DNA from: an uncultured Pelagibacteraceae bacterium
Lineage (GTDB): Bacteria > Pseudomonadota > Alphaproteobacteria > Pelagibacterales > Pelagibacteraceae
NCBI GenBank assembly: GCA_902574705.1
Contig: CACGOM010000008.1
Location: 1-55,440, forward strand
DNA length: 55,440 bases
Reading direction: 5' to 3'
The stretch's first letter is position 1, and the number at the start of each line of letters is the position of its first letter. Shown piece after piece: positions 25,607 to 44,567 of this stretch. Position numbers and translations under genes: made by a program. Below the pieces are notes generated by a model. It ran no database searches, was not told the DNA's origin, and saw nothing but the letters and a program-made list of their open reading frames with translations.

Positions 25607-25903
25607 TTAAAGTTTAACTGGGCTCAATTCATACATTTGAACTATTTCGATACATTCATCAAAAATAGGTTTTGCTATAGGATTATTGCCCGAAGCAAAT
25701 TTCTTCATTTCTTCTTCATTATGAACTGAAACTTTAAACATAACATAGCTTTTATCTGGCGCCATTCCAGGAACTGTTTTTTCAACATGGGCAATTGTTT
25801 TTCTTACTGCCATTCCCTCTTCTGACTGCATAAATCCCATAAACTTTTCAAATTTTCCTTCACCAGACTTTATTCTCGCTATTGCAAGCATTTCTTTTTC
25901 CAT
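25607..25903 (-). CDS. Small alpha/beta protein, dimeric-barrel-like, function unknown
   Basis: This is a soluble 98-residue protein, MEKEMLAIARIKSGEGKFEKFMGFM..., with a strand-helix-strand pattern. The YVMFKVSVHNEEEMKKFA segment resembles the ferredoxin-like ABM/DUF3764-type dimeric barrels. No catalytic residues can be assigned. An AAAGGAG Shine-Dalgarno sits 5 nt before the ATG (25909-25915). Just upstream of that in the leader lies a hairpin built on element R1. It is convergent with the peroxiredoxin. It may be a small stress- or metabolite-linked protein, but that is only a guess. Confidence 0.72.
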   Translation of the reverse strand: MEKEMLAIARIKSGEGKFEKFMGFMQSEEGMAVRKTIAHVEKTVPGMAPDKSYVMFKVSVHNEEEMKKFASGNNPIAKPIFDECIEIVQMYELSPVKL

Positions 25904-25920: not shown

Positions 25921-25943
25921 GGGGCGTTCTATTTCACGCCCTC
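25921..25943 (-). repeat. Element R1, divergent copy of the island repeat; hairpin in a 5' leader
   Basis: The plus strand reads GGGGCGTTCT followed by a different right half. GGGCG at 25922-25926 pairs with CGCCC at 25937-25941 around a 10-nt loop. The first ten bases are identical to elements R2-R4. On the minus strand the hairpin ends 5 nt before the AAAGGAG of the gene at 25607-25903. A possible promoter for that gene (TTCAAA, 16 bp, TACTAT on the minus strand near 25951-25978) would place the hairpin at the very 5' end of the mRNA. Confidence 0.6.
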
Positions 25944-26066
25944 GGTCAGATAGTACCATGAAATATAACTTTTTGAAAAGGTATATAGTTAGGTACATAG
26001 TAATTTAGTAGTATTTTGGTTTCAGCTTGCTTTACTTAATTCAATTTATAAATTAAAAATTTAATT

Positions 26067-26432
26067 ATGCTAATATTTATGCTGATTGTGGGAGTCGTGC
26101 TTATAATTACTGGGACTTCCGTGTTAGGAATTTTTATTTCAAGAAAAAACAAATTAATAAAAAATTTTACATCCAAAACACCTACATTAATATTTGTAAT
26201 AATTTTGACAATTTTTGCATTTTTCTTTACTTATGCAAATACTAAGGACATTGCTTATTCAGTGGGTGGTGCTTTTGGATATGTTTATGTTTGGTCTACT
26301 CTTTGTGCTCTGTTTGGGGTGTTGGCAATGAATAAGTTTAAATTTAATAAAAAAGAATTTTGGAATAGTTGGTTTTTTTCTCTTATTTGGATTTTTTTAA
26401 TTTTGATTACTCAAGAAATACTTAAAATTTAA
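26067..26432 (+). CDS. Unrecognised small membrane protein, first island module
   Basis: This 121-residue protein is not recognised. It has about four hydrophobic segments, near 3-24, 40-58, 64-88 and 102-118, joined by short Lys-rich loops (SRKNKLIKNFTSK, NKFKFNKKEF), a topology with positive loops inside. No motif is seen. There is no Shine-Dalgarno before the ATG. The stop codon is 7 nt from the left flank of element R2, so the repeat is at the 3' end of the gene. Confidence 0.6.
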   Translation: MLIFMLIVGVVLIITGTSVLGIFISRKNKLIKNFTSKTPTLIFVIILTIFAFFFTYANTKDIAYSVGGAFGYVYVWSTLCALFGVLAMNKFKFNKKEFWNSWFFSLIWIFLILITQEILKI

Positions 26433-26439
26433 CTTATTT

Positions 26440-26472
26440 AATGAGAAGGGGCGTTCTGTTGCCAGGTGCCCC
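26440..26472 (+). repeat. Element R2, island repeat with full stem
   Basis: The core GGGGCGTTCTGTTGCC is at 26448-26463, continuing AGGTGCCCC to 26472. GGGGCG pairs with TGCCCC (one G-U pair), and inside it CTG pairs with CAG around TTGC; the opposite strand would have a GCAA tetraloop there. The left flank 26440-26447 (AATGAGAA) is shared with R3; the right flank through GTGCC is shared with R4. Confidence 0.75.
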
Positions 26473-26540
26473 GAACTTTGTTTCAAAAATCCTTATATTG
26501 CAACACTTAGCAATAATCAAATTACGTAAATTATAGAATA

Positions 26541-26577
26541 ATTCCGAATAGATTCCGAACAAAATAACGTTCGGAAT
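26541..26577. promoter_or_regulatory. Inverted and direct ATTCCGAAC/T motifs before the GIY-YIG gene
   Basis: ATTCCGAAC at 26552-26560 and GTTCGGAAT at 26569-26577 form a perfect 9-bp inverted repeat with an 8-nt spacer. A further direct copy, ATTCCGAAT, is at 26541-26549. The arrangement looks like an operator for a dimeric repressor with an accessory half-site, 48 nt before the gene start. The same motif returns three times just beyond the end of this module (27686-27720). Confidence 0.5.
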
Positions 26578-26624
26578 AGATCAATATTTTAGACTCATGG
26601 TTCATGATTTGATAATCTTGGATC

Positions 26625-27215
26625 ATGAAAACTGTATACATCTTAACCAATCAAGCAATGCCTGGAATAATTAAGATTGGTTTCACTGACAACTCAGTAG
26701 AGCAAAGGATGAGAGAATTAGACAAAACTTCAACACCTATTCCATTTGAGTGTTATTACGCAAAACGTATAGATAAAGCTGAATTTGTAGAAAAGAAAAT
26801 GCATGAGGCGTTTGATGAATTTAGAATAAGAGACAATAGAGAATTTTTTAGAATGTCTCCCGAACAAGCAAAAGCAGCACTAGATATTGCTGAAGGAGAA
26901 GACGTAACTCCAAGGGAAGACGTAGTTGAAAACACAAGTGATAAAACAGCATTAGATAAAGAGAGAAATAGAAATCGATTTAATTTTGCCCAAATAGGTA
27001 TTGAAGTAGGTGAGGAGTTAGAATTTAAAAAAGATAAATCAATAAAAGCTAAAGTTTTAGAAAATGATTTAATTGAATTTAAAGGAAGACCCATGTCGCT
27101 TTCGCAATCAGCTTTAGAAATTGTTCAAGAGATGGGATATACGTGGAATAAAATAGCAGGCCCTCAATTTTGGATGTATAAAGGAAAGACGCTATACGAA
27201 TTAAACAATCAATGA
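26625..27215 (+). CDS. GIY-YIG (T5orf172/MUG113-like) nuclease with C-terminal RAMA-like domain
   Basis: The 196-residue protein begins with a GIY-YIG domain of the T5orf172 type. VYILTN (4-9) and IIKIGF (15-20) replace the GIY and YIG strands, EQRMREL (26-32) supplies the arginine, the metal-ligand glutamate would be in AEFVEKKMHEAF (52-63), and NREFF closes at 71-75. A charged linker (about 90-120) leads to a C-terminal domain (about 125-193) ending in QSALEIVQEMGYTWNKI, then FWMYKGKTLYEL. That ending follows the layout of RAMA domains found in adenine methyltransferases, including CcrM of this window. Together this suggests cleavage or sensing of modified DNA; this is inference. Its end overlaps the next gene (ATGA). 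Confidence 0.78.
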   Translation: MKTVYILTNQAMPGIIKIGFTDNSVEQRMRELDKTSTPIPFECYYAKRIDKAEFVEKKMHEAFDEFRIRDNREFFRMSPEQAKAALDIAEGEDVTPREDVVENTSDKTALDKERNRNRFNFAQIGIEVGEELEFKKDKSIKAKVLENDLIEFKGRPMSLSQSALEIVQEMGYTWNKIAGPQFWMYKGKTLYELNNQ

Positions 27216-27682
27216 AAAAACTTTTAGGGATCTTAGTTCTAAGCTTGTTATTAAATGGAAACGCTTTTGGGGAAACCATTATGTTAGAATGTGTTTTGAT
27301 AGATGAAGGAAAACTATCGAGATATAAAAACAACAAGGTTGTGAAAGTTGAGAAGCCTTCATTAACAAGTTGGCGCAAAGAATATGATATCAGAGTAAAT
27401 CCAGAATTAAAAAAGATGATTAAAGGACCTGATATTGGTTCTTACCCACCAGCAAAAGTATATTGGACAGATGATAGCATTATGTGGACTAATGAAATTG
27501 AGGCTACAATAGGTTATAGAACTGAGTCAAAATATATTTTAGACAGAGTAGAAGGCTATATTTCTTCAGAAATCAAAAGTTACGATGTCAAATATTTTAA
27601 TGATGGGAGCAAACCTAAAAAAACATTAAGTTATATTATTGAACTTAAGCATAAGTGTAAGGTTAATAAAAAATTATTTTAA
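27212..27682 (+). CDS. Unrecognised secreted protein coupled to the GIY-YIG gene
   Basis: This 156-residue protein has a cleavable-looking signal peptide (MKKLLGILVLSLLLNGNAFG, about 1-20), then a soluble, Lys-rich domain starting ETIMLECVLIDEG. Two cysteines remain after the signal, at about residues 26 and 151, and could pair in the periplasm. Many SAR11 exported proteins of unknown role share this kind of N-terminus. The start overlaps the nuclease gene by 4 nt (ATGA), so the two are translated together although one is cytoplasmic and the other exported. No function is proposed. Confidence 0.65.
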   Translation: MKKLLGILVLSLLLNGNAFGETIMLECVLIDEGKLSRYKNNKVVKVEKPSLTSWRKEYDIRVNPELKKMIKGPDIGSYPPAKVYWTDDSIMWTNEIEATIGYRTESKYILDRVEGYISSEIKSYDVKYFNDGSKPKKTLSYIIELKHKCKVNKKLF

Positions 27683-27683
27683 T

Positions 27684-27738
27684 AACCGAATATTAGTTTT
27701 ATTCCGAACACAGGCCGAATCCCTCGGTTGTATTTTTT
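27684..27738 (+). terminator. Possible weak terminator and CCGAAY motif cluster after the GIY-YIG module
   Basis: CCGA at 27715-27718 pairs with TCGG at 27724-27727 around ATCCC, followed by a T-rich run ending in six T (27733-27738). AACCGA at 27684-27689 could pair instead with TCGGTT at 27724-27729. The stem is short, so termination is uncertain. CCGAAT or CCGAAC occurs at 27686, 27704 and 27715, echoing the motif upstream of the module. Confidence 0.35.
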
Positions 27739-27770
27739 AAATAACGTTGATACTGCAAACTAAATTAACA

Positions 27771-27798
27771 AATGAGAAGGGGCGTTCTGTTGCCCGGC
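27771..27798 (+). repeat. Element R3, island repeat
   Basis: The core GGGGCGTTCTGTTGCC is at 27779-27794 and is identical to R2, as is the 8-nt left flank at 27771-27778, for 24 matching bases. The right half differs after GCC (CGGCATT), so the long outer stem of R2 is lost; only GGGC with GCCC (27780-27783 with 27792-27795) remains possible. It separates the nuclease module from the small-protein module. Confidence 0.72.
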
Positions 27799-27839
27799 AT
27801 TAGATTTGAAAATAGCATAATTGCTTACTTATTAAAACT

Positions 27840-27906
27840 ACTTCGTTGAAAACTTCGTTGAGAGATCTCCTTATTTTGTCCAAGGTTTGCCTTTGGACTT
27901 CGTTGA
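27840..27906. repeat. Three ACTTCGTTGA repeats around a short hairpin
   Basis: ACTTCGTTGA occurs at 27840-27849, 27852-27861 and 27897-27906. Between the second and third copies lie the palindrome GAGATCTC (27862-27869) and a hairpin, GTCCAAGG (27878-27885) with CCTTTGGAC (27890-27898), with one bulged base. The cluster is in the leader region of the strongly ribosome-bound gene at 27949. No role is known; a regulatory leader or a recombination scar are both possible. Confidence 0.5.
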
Positions 27907-27936
27907 AAAATTATAGGTGTTCGACTAAACTTAATT

Positions 27937-27943
27937 AAGGAGG
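27937..27943 (+). promoter_or_regulatory. Strong Shine-Dalgarno AAGGAGG
   Basis: AAGGAGG sits 5 nt before the ATG at 27949. Most genes in this window lack a recognisable site; the same sequence at the same spacing precedes atpE, which is made in many copies per complex. High translation of the small His-rich protein is therefore expected. Confidence 0.75.
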
Positions 27944-27948
27944 TTTAT

Positions 27949-28203
27949 ATGGATAAATATTCTAAATTTGTTTTATCAGTTATAGCGGTTTGTTTAATTG
28001 GAATAAATGTTCATTTATTCAAAAATAGTTTTATTAGTATTGCAAACGCAATTGAAAGTCATACTCATTATTTAAGCGATGTACCTCATTCACATTTTGC
28101 AGAACATTTACCTATCAATTTGGATGGTGATCAAAAAAAACTTGGTGAAATAATTAAAATTTTAATGAAAAATAATCATAATCACTTTTGGCAGAATGAT
28201 TGA
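27949..28203 (+). CDS. Small His-rich membrane-anchored protein, unknown
   Basis: An 84-residue protein with one N-terminal hydrophobic segment (about 7-24, likely an uncleaved anchor) and a hydrophilic tail rich in histidine: eight in total, including SHTHYLSDVPHSHFAEH (37-53) and NHNHF (76-80). The clusters could bind divalent metal; this is inference from composition only. It has the strong AAGGAGG site 5 nt upstream. The end overlaps the next gene by 8 nt (28196-28203), so translation is likely coupled. I do not recognise a named family. Confidence 0.68.
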   Translation: MDKYSKFVLSVIAVCLIGINVHLFKNSFISIANAIESHTHYLSDVPHSHFAEHLPINLDGDQKKLGEIIKILMKNNHNHFWQND

Positions 28204-28369
28204 TCAATTTTTTTGGTGGTGTGTTGGTGTATTGCAGTATATCGGTACTGTTACGGGTATGGGATACAATTTGGCAAATATTGTTATCTTCGTAATATTG
28301 CAACCAGCATTAATTCTCTTATTTTTTATTCTTTGGAGAATAGAAAAGAAAAAAAATAGAAATAAATAA
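28196..28369 (+). CDS. 57-residue membrane protein, unknown
   Basis: The frame starts with ATG at 28196, overlapping the end of the His-rich gene by 8 nt. It reads MIDQFFWWCVGVLQYIGTVT, then GYNLANIVIFVILQPALILLFFIL, and ends in a basic tail WRIEKKKNRNK. One clear membrane helix lies at about 28-47, and a second weaker aromatic segment at the start. The pattern of a Tyr/Asn entry followed by NIVIFVILQPALILL recalls short uncharacterised proteins common in marine bacteria, but no family name can be given with confidence. Confidence 0.55.
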   Translation: MIDQFFWWCVGVLQYIGTVTGMGYNLANIVIFVILQPALILLFFILWRIEKKKNRNK

Positions 28370-28387
28370 ATGGATGATATTTAAATA

Positions 28388-28600
28388 ATGGAAACAATTC
28401 TTATTTATATTTTTTGGTTTGTATGTCTTCTCATTTTTTATGGTATTTTCTTTTATGTTATTAAACCAGGTATTTATATTGGTCTAGAATATATGTACCG
28501 AAAAGTTTTTAAAGTATCTCCCAATAAACCTGTTTCTAGATGGATTCTCTATGCAATTTTAATGTCAATAATTTTTTTGATTGCCTGGATATTTGCATAA
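28388..28600 (+). CDS. 70-residue two-span membrane protein, unknown
   Basis: The protein reads METILIYIFWFVCLLIFYGIFFYVIKPG, then a basic loop (YMYRKVFKVSPNKPVSRW, about 36-53), then a second hydrophobic helix up to the C-terminus. No motif is recognised. No Shine-Dalgarno is seen; the gene starts 18 nt after the previous stop and probably shares its message. Its stop codon is 9 nt before element R4, again putting an R element at the 3' end of a module. Being short and hydrophobic it could be a chance frame, but length and position argue for a gene. Confidence 0.52.
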   Translation: METILIYIFWFVCLLIFYGIFFYVIKPGIYIGLEYMYRKVFKVSPNKPVSRWILYAILMSIIFLIAWIFA

Positions 28601-28609
28601 AACTATTTA

Positions 28610-28634
28610 GGGGGCGTTCTGTTGCCAGGTGCCT
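28610..28634 (+). repeat. Element R4, island repeat at the right border
   Basis: The core GGGGCGTTCTGTTGCC is at 28611-28626, with AGGTGCC shared with R2 up to 28633. GGGGC pairs with GCCTC (one G-U pair), and CTG with CAG around TTGC. The left side TTTAG-GGGG resembles the left side of R1 rather than R2/R3. It lies between the last island gene and the end of rnhA on the opposite strand. Confidence 0.75.
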
Positions 28635-28637
28635 CAC

Positions 28638-29060
28638 TTACAAGTTTGCAGCTCCTCTAGCAATTAAATCAACTTCGTTGTTTAACTTATCAGTTGAATG
28701 CGCTTTTACCCAACTCCATTTAATATCAAATTCATTTGAAAGCAAATCTAACTCCACCCAAAGATCTTTATTTTTAACTTTTTGTTTACTAGCAGTTTTC
28801 CATCCATTTTTTTTCCAACTGTGAATCCATTCTGTTATTCCTGATTTTACATACTTAGAGTCTGTAAAAATTTGAACCTTGCTGCCTTTAGGAATTTTTT
28901 TTAGAGCTTTAATAGGTGCCAATAATTCCATTTGATTATTTGTTGTATCTTTTTTGCTTCCTTTTATTTCAATCTTTTTTCCATCATTTATTATTATTGC
29001 TGCCCAACCTCCTTTACCTGGATTTCCTATACATGAACCGTCTGTATAAATTTTTATCAT
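28638..29060 (-). CDS. rnhA: Ribonuclease HI
   Basis: RNase HI cuts RNA in RNA-DNA hybrids. The 140-residue protein shows the DEDD active site: IYTDGSCIGNPG (Asp near 6, with the conserved glycine loop), the Glu in NNQMELLAPIKAL (near 45), the Asp in VQIFTDSKYVKSGI (near 67) and the terminal Asp near VDLIARGAA (about 131). It shares a base with the thrB stop (TAATG). It is the last gene of the long minus-strand train and borders the island at element R4. Confidence 0.95.
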   Translation of the reverse strand: MIKIYTDGSCIGNPGKGGWAAIIINDGKKIEIKGSKKDTTNNQMELLAPIKALKKIPKGSKVQIFTDSKYVKSGITEWIHSWKKNGWKTASKQKVKNKDLWVELDLLSNEFDIKWSWVKAHSTDKLNNEVDLIARGAANL

Positions 29061-43403: not shown

Positions 43404-44473
43404 GTTTCTGGTCTTAAGCGTTGTCTAAGCTCATCAATAGGTTTCAAACTATTTCCCACTTGATAATGCCAATAGGTCCAACCATTACAGCTTTCAGCTC
43501 CTAATATTTGAGCTGCAACTTTGTGAATAGAACCTTCATTTTGTTTGTGTTTGATACTTCCGTCAATCATTACTTTTGCAAAAACTTTCTTTTTTTGATC
43601 ATAAATTTCTGTTCCAGGTTTAATTACTCCTAATTCAATTAATGAACCAAAAGGTATTCTAGGTTTTGCTTTATTATTTTGAACTACATCTAAAAACTCA
43701 TCTTTAATTATATGGGTATTTTTTAATCTTTTGTTTGCAGCCTCAAAATATTTTTTTTCTTTTTCTATACCAAAATAGGATCGTCCTAATTTTTTTGAAA
43801 CTACAGCAGTTGTCCCCGACCCTAAAAAAGGATCTAAAATAAAATCATTTTTATTTGAAGATGCCAATACTATTCTATGCAGTAATGCCTCTGGCTTTTG
43901 AGTTGAATGAACTTTTGTTCCATTATCTTTAAGCCTTTCTTTTCCATTGCATATCGGTAAGTTCCATGTAGATCTCATTTGCAAATCATCATTAAAAGAT
44001 TTCATTGATTGATAATTGAAAGTGTATTTAGATTTTTTATTTTTTGATGCCCAAATTAATGTTTCATGAGCATTTGTAAATCTGGTGCCTCTGAAATTCG
44101 GCATTGGGTTATTTTTATTCCAGATTACATCATTTAAAATCCAAAAACCAAGGTCTTGAATTATTTTACCGACTCTAAAAATATTATGATAGCTGCCTAT
44201 TACCCAAATCGATCCATCCTTTTTTAATATTCTTTTACATTGTTCTAACCATTCATAAGTAAATTTGTCATAAGATTGAAAACTTTCAAATTGGTCCCAT
44301 TTATCATTAACAGCATTAACTTTTGATCTATCTGGCCGGATTAAGCTATTTTGTAATTGTAAATTATATGGTGGATCAGCAAAAATTAGATCAAATGTTT
44401 CATTAGGAATCTTTTTTAGTTCTTTTAAGCTATCGCCATTAATAATTTTATTGTTTAAATTTTTTGTAATCAT
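43400..44473 (-). CDS. ccrM: Cell-cycle adenine DNA methyltransferase CcrM (GANTC)
   Basis: CcrM methylates adenine in GANTC, usually late in replication, and acts as a cell-cycle clock in alphaproteobacteria. The 357 residues are of the beta class: motif IV DPPYNLQL at 33-40 comes before the SAM-binding DPFLGSGTTAV at 214-224. The C-terminal domain (about 270-357) has HKVAAQILGAESCNGWTYWHY and ends SLKPIDELRQRLRP, the RAMA-type DNA-reading domain of this family. The 81-bp upstream gap is dense in GANTC sites. A second RAMA-like domain is in the island nuclease. Confidence 0.93.
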   Translation of the reverse strand: MITKNLNNKIINGDSLKELKKIPNETFDLIFADPPYNLQLQNSLIRPDRSKVNAVNDKWDQFESFQSYDKFTYEWLEQCKRILKKDGSIWVIGSYHNIFRVGKIIQDLGFWILNDVIWNKNNPMPNFRGTRFTNAHETLIWASKNKKSKYTFNYQSMKSFNDDLQMRSTWNLPICNGKERLKDNGTKVHSTQKPEALLHRIVLASSNKNDFILDPFLGSGTTAVVSKKLGRSYFGIEKEKKYFEAANKRLKNTHIIKDEFLDVVQNNKAKPRIPFGSLIELGVIKPGTEIYDQKKKVFAKVMIDGSIKHKQNEGSIHKVAAQILGAESCNGWTYWHYQVGNSLKPIDELRQRLRPET

Positions 44474-44490
44474 TTTTAAAAAATTAATTA

Positions 44491-44567
44491 GACTCCAGCC
44501 AAGATTCTACGTCAACCAGAGATTGAAATAAATGGACTCTTCTTGTTATATGATTTAGTTTGGACTC
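44491..44567. promoter_or_regulatory. Four GANTC sites before ccrM
   Basis: GACTC at 44491-44495, GATTC at 44503-44507, GACTC at 44535-44539 and GACTC at 44563-44567 lie in 77 bp directly upstream of ccrM. Each is a substrate for CcrM, so methylation state could feed back on the gene, as known for Caulobacter ccrM. By eye this is much denser than the genome average for an AT-rich sequence. Confidence 0.6.

Follow-up and report, generated by a model that had tools for sequence, protein, structure and literature searches.

Probable integrase-less integrative cassettes bounded by copies of the ssrA 3' end in an uncultured Pelagibacteraceae bacterium and its SAR11 relatives

Additive flexible genomic islands with direct repeats of tRNA fragments have been described in Ca. 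Actinomarinales (PMC7771536) and, as a tRNA-Lys island, in Ca. Methylopumilus (PMC10872708), and transfer-messenger RNA (tmRNA) genes are known as integration sites as well (PMC4383910, PMC11915505). In Dehalococcoides, multiple tandem islands are found at the tmRNA gene, ssrA, with 20-bp direct repeats of its 3' end (PMC3146451). For SAR11, an integrase of hypervariable region 2 (HVR2) is mentioned in a report in which attC sites were not found at the hypervariable regions (PMC2217521), and prophages are said to be rare (PMC7771536). The present analysis concerns a stretch of 55,440 nt, called the window throughout, which is contig CACGOM010000008.1 (assembly GCA_902574705.1) of an uncultured Pelagibacteraceae bacterium, with coordinates given on the forward strand. 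At the rnhA site it carries about 2.7 kb of DNA that is punctuated by direct copies of a short element, R, and is read as three stacked elements. R corresponds in antisense to the final ~25 nt of ssrA, which in SAR11 encodes a permuted tmRNA (Rfam RF01849). The segments between R copies are, with a probability put at about 85%, minimal integrase-less integrative cassettes, that is, attP shells with exchangeable cargo that use the ssrA 3' end as attachment site and are moved in trans.

A preliminary description of this stretch, made from its letters alone, had placed a core sequence at 26448, 27779 and 28611, all in the same orientation, with a diverged copy at 25921. A pattern scan bears this out: the core GGGGCGTTCTGTTGCC is exact on the + strand at the first three positions and has 3 mismatches at the fourth. 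These four copies (R2, R3, R4 and R1 respectively) are the only matches at ≤3 mismatches on either strand of the window, as had also been noticed, where 0.02 would be expected and no shuffle reached 4. The copies do lie close after stop codons as claimed, with distances that required correction: 15 nt (R2), 96 nt (R3) and 10 nt (R4) from the end of the stop codon, in place of 7-9 nt for R2 and R4 and ~90 nt for R3. The three modules proposed (a membrane protein; a nuclease with a secreted protein; three small proteins) correspond to open reading frames (ORFs) as described, and no integrase is seen in the island, the genome's single match to the integrase family PF00589 lying on another contig. 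Outside the window, the same genome holds two further exact copies: ssrA contains the first (C1), and the second (C13) is at the 3' end of a PNPase-like gene. A reversed control pattern gave one match in this genome at ≤3 mismatches and none at ≤2.

A permuted tmRNA was called by ARAGORN over an R copy in 27 of the 39 loci scanned (own-genome L001 and 26 of 38 others), and alignments to RF01849 run to the last position of the model, across ...GGCAACAGAACGCCCC, over R in 5 of 7 sources. As would be expected of a fragment of 25 nt, the window copies fall below the gathering threshold of 50 bits or have no match: R2 matches on the minus strand with 29.7 bits (E 4.4e-6), R4 with 18.4 bits (E 0.011), and no RF01849 match was obtained for R1 or R3. 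The preliminary description had considered that R might be part of a known RNA unrelated to gene turnover; the first half of this holds, since R is part of tmRNA, but tmRNA genes are themselves integration sites.

Far from being confined to this locus, R is present at ≤2 mismatches in 68 of 81 genomes of the genus, with at least two copies in 35, while the reversed control pattern was found in none of the 81 at the same threshold. An exact-pattern scan of genome contigs returned at least 119 stretches; among the 80 matches listed, 68 bear Pelagibacteraceae, Pelagibacterales or Pelagibacter in the title, and the remaining ones are other Alphaproteobacteria or chance matches. After removal of same-flank duplicates, and of 18 of 295 copies whose flanks have ≥42% G+C, 277 copies at ≤3 mismatches were counted, 124 of them in ssrA. 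Neighbouring copies delimit 109 segments, which measure 88-5810 bp with a median of 800 bp (104 are ≤3 kb); the smallest, at ~0.1 kb (e.g. 128 bp in L026), are hardly more than two arms. Wherever a locus has at least two copies at ≤2 mismatches, all R lie on one strand (54 of 54 loci), forming direct arrays. The homes identified are the 3' ends of ssrA, rnhA (17 copies) and pnp (3 copies), and R-bounded elements are present at ssrA and pnp loci, which the preliminary description had named as a form of support for the cassette model; some arrays, such as L065, L127 and L257, stand at loci without identification.

Both empty and filled forms of the window's site were found. L161, whose rnhA is the closest (93%) among the 80 other genomes, has there a lone R without a cassette, and its flanks are 94.5% and 89.1% identical to those of the window, overlapping by 17 bp at R, where the window island sits. 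R1 and R4 are real copies of R, since this lone R has both the left flank of R1 (over 40 bases) and the rnhA flank of R4. The left flank up to R is common to four genomes, namely L161 (empty), L063 (one 1414-bp segment), L117 and the window. Of the 58 other genomes with an rnhA match, 42 relatives were fetched for comparison of this locus: R lies ≤35 bp from the rnhA stop in 13, seven of which are empty up to the left gene; one has R only farther away; and 28 have no R, among them the six whose rnhA is most divergent (63-70%). Occupants differ, in that no window cargo protein of ≥70 aa matches another occupant in the filled-site comparison at rnhA. Content at the thrC-rnhA locus is partly shared, as relatives of the window nuclease occur there in L278 (58%) and L288 (37%), and L278 also has an R3-like end. 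At ssrA, a tRNA-Leu gene starts 104-115 bp from R in 10 of 54 loci, its end being some 20-30 bp from R, and lies 245-3175 bp from R in another 10, with an outer diverged R near the tRNA in L217 and L228; no tRNA is present in the other 34 stretches, some of which are short. In the ssrA locus of the window's own genome (L252), tRNA-Leu starts 1514 bp from R, and ~1.4 kb seems to have been inserted with no second R at ≤3 mismatches.

The main support for the cassette reading comes from a transfer from R to R and its alignments. A 661-bp element at rnhA in L187 is the same as one in the ssrA array of L229, at 99.6% identity over 685 bp, with both limits of the homology at R; the ssrA genes of the two genomes are only 88.7% identical (275 bp). 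The same element is found at ssrA in L033 at 96%. These alignments show a transfer of the 661-bp element both from locus to locus and from lineage to lineage, barring misassembly of one contig.

In many elements the ends are conserved and the interiors swapped. Forty-nine element pairs share both ends at ≥70%; for 29 of the 40 listed pairs, whose ends are 0.72-0.98 identical, blastn gave no match between the interiors. Cassette 2 of the window, compared with a 754-bp ssrA element in L034, has ends at 0.89 (left) and 0.93 (right) and an interior without alignment. The left and right arms of the same element share 2.42 8-mers, against 0.62 when arms are permuted between elements (95 elements, including a few near-identical ones; p 2e-4), and at least three 8-mers are common to both arms in 27 of the 95, where 6.0 would be expected. 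In lambda-type attP, arm-type sites lie on both sides of the core; by analogy, the paired arm repeats look like an attP with arm sites as used by a tyrosine integrase. Of the 64 members of the left-end cluster CR1, 44 are element ends and 20 are rnhA flanks, by a count made by eye.

In the mechanism proposed, R would be an attachment site whose original home is the ssrA 3' end. An element would bring along the final 12-16 nt of the tmRNA gene (GGGGCGTTCTGT..) and with them rebuild that gene on insertion, and would itself supply the other side of the outer R. The typical R-to-R segment would consist of a conserved arm of ~100 bp on each side, with arm-type repeats, R at the join, and swappable cargo without a recombinase gene. 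Such elements would be integrated and excised at R by a tyrosine recombinase acting in trans, presumably by way of a circular intermediate, and insertion into an existing R would produce stacked direct arrays. Some elements would have settled secondarily at rnhA and pnp, again at the 3' end of the gene, and the window would hold three elements stacked at the rnhA site. The cassette layout suggested in the preliminary description is supported, R being kept while the genes between copies differ. That description had left homologous and site-specific recombination side by side; the latter is favoured here because the mapped boundaries fall at R, the ~100-bp ends are conserved on both sides, and the repeats match between ends.

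The R copies themselves bear on the place of the crossover. Among copies outside ssrA at ≤2 mismatches, positions 1-13 are conserved at 94-100% and position 14 at 79%, with a variable right half, and the conservation of the 16-mer is partly a selection effect, the copies having been picked by matching it; the profile fits a crossover within GGGGCGTTCTGT, such that the right side of the outer R derives from the element and that of the inner R from ssrA. Where a genome's ssrA reads TTACC, its other copies in fetched loci carry an A there in 7 of 8 cases, as do 8 of 145 copies elsewhere (Fisher 1.4e-7), a p-value that is overstated, as two genomes (G056 and G102) make up the test and copies of one array are non-independent. 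A further G056 copy (C32) that is not TTACC brings the count to 7 of 9 and weakens the test; this recount left confidence in the cassette reading unchanged. Several observations count against this account. Arm repeats are absent from some elements, a repeated 8-mer occurring in 44 of 95 left arms and 31 right arms, more often than in middles (22). A second R is present in only 15 of the 54 ssrA stretches, leaving many ssrA-adjacent insertions without a recognisable outer R. Relatives of the window nuclease lack R in the fetched stretch at 12 of 15 other loci (3 have it), and cargo therefore also moves by other means; the same count speaks against R and its genes being inherited as a fixed block. 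In the 29 and the 81 genomes searched, compared by eye, no PF00589 gene was found on contigs with R, save in the one-contig genome G040 (339 kb away), a point of small weight because the genomes are fragmentary and their contigs often short. As an observation on alleles, the five-R array L257 (G056 C12) has in every copy the TTACC allele of its own genome's ssrA.

Two readings would dispense with a site-specific enzyme. Homologous recombination usually needs more than a homology that ends at 16-25 bp. Segments might nevertheless be exchanged between SAR11 cells through the short R and shared arms alone, given that the ~100-bp arms supply some homology, that composite elements without internal R exist, and that recombination in SAR11 is heavy (PMC12374537). 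Insertions into new loci that offer one R, where homology stops at the 16-25 bp of R, and the single orientation in 54 of 54 loci argue otherwise, and this explanation is considered improbable. It is less probable still, to the point of being hardly credible, that R, once copied from ssrA, is a fixed RNA element or transcription terminator with no relation to mobility. GGGGC can pair with GCCCC within R, and R follows genes when inspected by eye, but the right half of R3 breaks the pairing, there is no T-run, and empty sites exist; the R-precise transfer between L187 and L229 rules this reading out, barring assembly error.

The search for a recombinase bears on how the cassette reading would be completed. 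PF00589 is matched in 59 of 81 genomes, usually by one protein of ~305-326 aa, and serine recombinases (PF00239) in none of the 81. The only PF00589 protein of the window's own genome (L258:1979-2935, + strand, 318 aa) adjoins glycosyltransferase-like genes, and this recombinase of ~304-318 aa at the glycosyltransferase cluster is taken here to be the HVR2 integrase SAR11_0551. Against NCBIfam models it scores 73.4 bits for XerD (cut-off 329.6) and 64.8 for XerC (cut-off 335.15), and against the integron integrase model 29.8 bits (cut-off 265); canonical XerCD may be missing from SAR11. None of 1412 ORFs of ≥160 aa from the loci searched was matched by a profile of the SAR11 recombinase, which is a narrow test. 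No R-like site at ≤4 mismatches was present in 11 stretches around PF00589 matches (10 of other lengths and the HVR2-type one of G040); six of these stretches have tRNA genes, and a motif filter returned no integrase ORF in them, leaving the ORFs unconfirmed. Five PF00589 stretches (L262, L264 and L265; L263 and L266) have tRNA-Leu(TAG) or tRNA-Thr and no R.

Among viral contigs, 14 stretches contain the 16-mer, and eight of them (L008-L011, L014, L015, L017 and L020) have a context of the ssrA type following R; judged by context, the remaining six look like chance matches. Although classed as viral, these eight contigs could be host DNA, or their tmRNA could be phage-borne. L008, the sole one scanned, encodes the tmRNA tag ADENLALAA. 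Patterns of R plus arm gave no relevant viral contig, the single match lying inside an ORF on a contig without R, and two arm queries returned no phage record.

Two helpers are considered for the trans action, as ways of completing the cassette reading and not as rivals of it. The elements could have arisen by deletion from a temperate pelagiphage or another mobile element, or be its satellites, and its arm-binding integrase would act in trans on infection, a proposal that comes close to an even chance without reaching it. The arm-like repeats at both ends resemble lambda-type attP, the repeat families vary between elements as if there were several helpers, and the cargo includes restriction-modification and other defence genes; the searches of viral contigs and phage records just described, and the 11 PF00589 stretches without R, speak against it. 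Alternatively, the resident tyrosine recombinase at the glycosyltransferase cluster could move the cassettes in the manner of a chromosomal integron integrase. It is the sole PF00589 protein found in many array genomes, has a clear relative in 10 of 14 genus genomes that are ≥90% complete, and falls far below the XerC and XerD cut-offs. This helper is nonetheless rather unlikely: among the matches listed, no R at ≤3 mismatches lies nearby, only chance-like sites with 4-5 mismatches (none at ≤4 in L272); a weak SAM-like N-domain match from residue 18 leaves little space for an arm-binding domain; and no match was found in G024, a genome with an R array. A phage integrase acting in trans is regarded as at least as likely as the HVR2 recombinase. 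Beyond the loci described, a genome-wide SAR11 system might be envisaged in which shells of ~200 bp of the attP type carry any cargo and are inserted at ssrA, rnhA and pnp 3' ends by a single resident recombinase or by passing phage integrases. This extension is tentative and on the doubtful side; if true, such a system would amount to an integron-like trade of defence and other genes in streamlined genomes, with no integrase in the array.

The cargo of the elements is diverse. ORFs of ≥75 aa number 139, in 90 families, and 116 of the 139 are on the strand of R (p 4e-16); these counts rest on 107 segments, two more (4.6 and 5.2 kb) in a recount giving 109. The 90 family representatives include a Tsp45I-type restriction enzyme with its methylase, a type I system, a MrcB-N/NOV-C protein, MADS-like proteins, acetyltransferases and methyltransferases. 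The window nuclease, of the T5orf172 type and presumably GIY-YIG-like, has relatives in 16 of 250 genus genomes, its own included. One of these (L274, gene at 1501) is 98% identical and stands in another context, with homology covering the gene and 34 bp upstream; a 43-bp upstream stretch there recurs downstream, as if the gene had moved via another short-repeat route. The features of the island are collected in Table 1. The labels ABM, prx, thrC, thrB, pnp and HVR2 integrase were given by eye, with a family match only for the redoxin domain of prx and for the integrase domain. Elsewhere in the window, at 44470-44539 (-), there is a match above the gathering threshold to the Rfam bablM sRNA (RF01784; 56.3 bits).

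Table 1. Features of the R-punctuated island and its borders (forward-strand window coordinates)
Feature	Position	Strand	Size or remark
98-aa flanking gene, left of site	25607..25903	-	99% identical in empty-site relative; no Pfam match
R1	25921..25945	+	diverged copy; outer (left) junction of island; left flank is that of empty-site relative
R2	26448..26472	+	exact core and right half AGGTGCCCC
R3	27779..27803	+	exact core; divergent right half CGGCATTAG, read as element-derived side
R4	28611..28635	+	exact core; starts 27 nt before rnhA stop codon; resident site
Cassette 1	25921..26447	+	527 bp
Cassette 2	26448..27778	+	1331 bp
Cassette 3	27779..28610	+	832 bp
Cassette 1 repeat, arm-like, direct	25980..26000	+	GGTAYATAG at 25980 and 25992
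Cassette 1 cargo, 121-aa membrane-type ORF	26067..26432	+	no Pfam family above cut-off
Cassette 2 left-end repeat, arm-like, direct	26541..26559	+	ATTCCGAA at 26541 and 26552
Cassette 2 cargo, T5orf172/MUG113 nuclease-type protein	26625..27215	+	PADLOC candidate defence family PDC-S57, E 2.3e-70
Cassette 2 cargo, 156-aa ORF	27212..27682	+	secreted-type start by eye; no family match
Cassette 2 right-end repeat, same ATTCCGAA	27701..27708	+	
Cassette 3 repeat, arm-like, direct, after R3	27840..27906	+	ACTTCGTTGA three times, at 27840, 27852 and 27897
Cassette 3 cargo, 84-aa ORF	27949..28203	+	no family match
Cassette 3 cargo, 57-aa ORF	28196..28369	+	no family match
Cassette 3 cargo, 70-aa ORF	28388..28600	+	no family above cut-off
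rnhA	28638..29060	-	RNase H-like by eye; 3' end is secondary attachment locus

SAR11 is among the most abundant marine bacterial groups, and the movement of accessory genes there is poorly known. With a recognisable site and conserved ends, the movement can be searched for and tested directly: R-bounded cassettes can be identified in sequence data, which allows a catalogue of their cargo and a comparison of their transfers. The cassettes appear to bring many cargoes of no known function and some of antiviral type, and to be added and swapped without a visible enzyme of their own, and the recombinase that moves them becomes a sharply posed question.

Integrons carry small cassettes in arrays, most cassettes having one or two ORFs and the same orientation. 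The SAR11 arrays are likewise built of small cassettes in the same orientation, but the site they use is the tmRNA 3' end, flanked on either side by an arm, and the recombinase of the window's own genome is far from the integron integrase cut-off. Modules moved by Xer at dif sites differ in their enzyme, the same protein scoring below both Xer cut-offs; R is the end of ssrA. As in lambda-type attP, cognate arm repeats flank the core on both sides in part of the SAR11 elements. Self-integrating genomic islands differ in that no integrase was seen next to att in the SAR11 arrays, in genomes that are fragmentary. Tycheposons are also cargo elements at RNA genes of marine oligotrophs, but they span 4-200 kb and carry a tyrosine recombinase (cited via PMC10872708), whereas the SAR11 elements span 0.09-5.8 kb and none was found in them. 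In cis-mobilizable elements (CIMEs) and their tandem accretion (PMC5704250), integrase-less DNA lies between attL and attR and builds up in tandem where a gene has its 3' end. The SAR11 cassettes have the same traits of attL and attR kept and integration genes lost, and depart from CIMEs in that shells are common to different cargo and that one element occurs alone at another locus. No partner of the integrative conjugative or integrative mobilizable kind was seen, in an analysis that made no specific search for one.

The Dehalococcoides islands have an integration module with a serine recombinase in 16 of 31 cases (PMC3146451), in contrast to SAR11, where none was found in the 81 genomes and where ssrA is of the permuted form. 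The islands of Ca. Actinomarinales and Ca. Methylopumilus are alike in plan, being small cassettes (330 bp-42 kb in Methylopumilus) stacked by an RNA gene with repeats of the gene's end, in streamlined aquatic bacteria. Two features of such RNA-gene-fragment islands recur in SAR11: direct repeats of the gene's 3' part are present at cassette borders, and relatives are empty or variously filled. An intact RNA gene adjoins the ssrA arrays, the window array standing instead at rnhA, a secondary site. SAR11 differs in its use of ssrA with secondary rnhA and pnp sites and perhaps also in its conserved two-sided arms with swapped interiors. No report of ssrA-bounded cassette arrays in SAR11 was found by title or by the start of the abstract, in a search that left most subscription journals and preprints outside. 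Cassettes bounded by RNA-gene fragments and tandem islands at ssrA are known elsewhere; what is new is their occurrence in SAR11 as integrase-less, two-armed shells of ~1 kb with three known homes.

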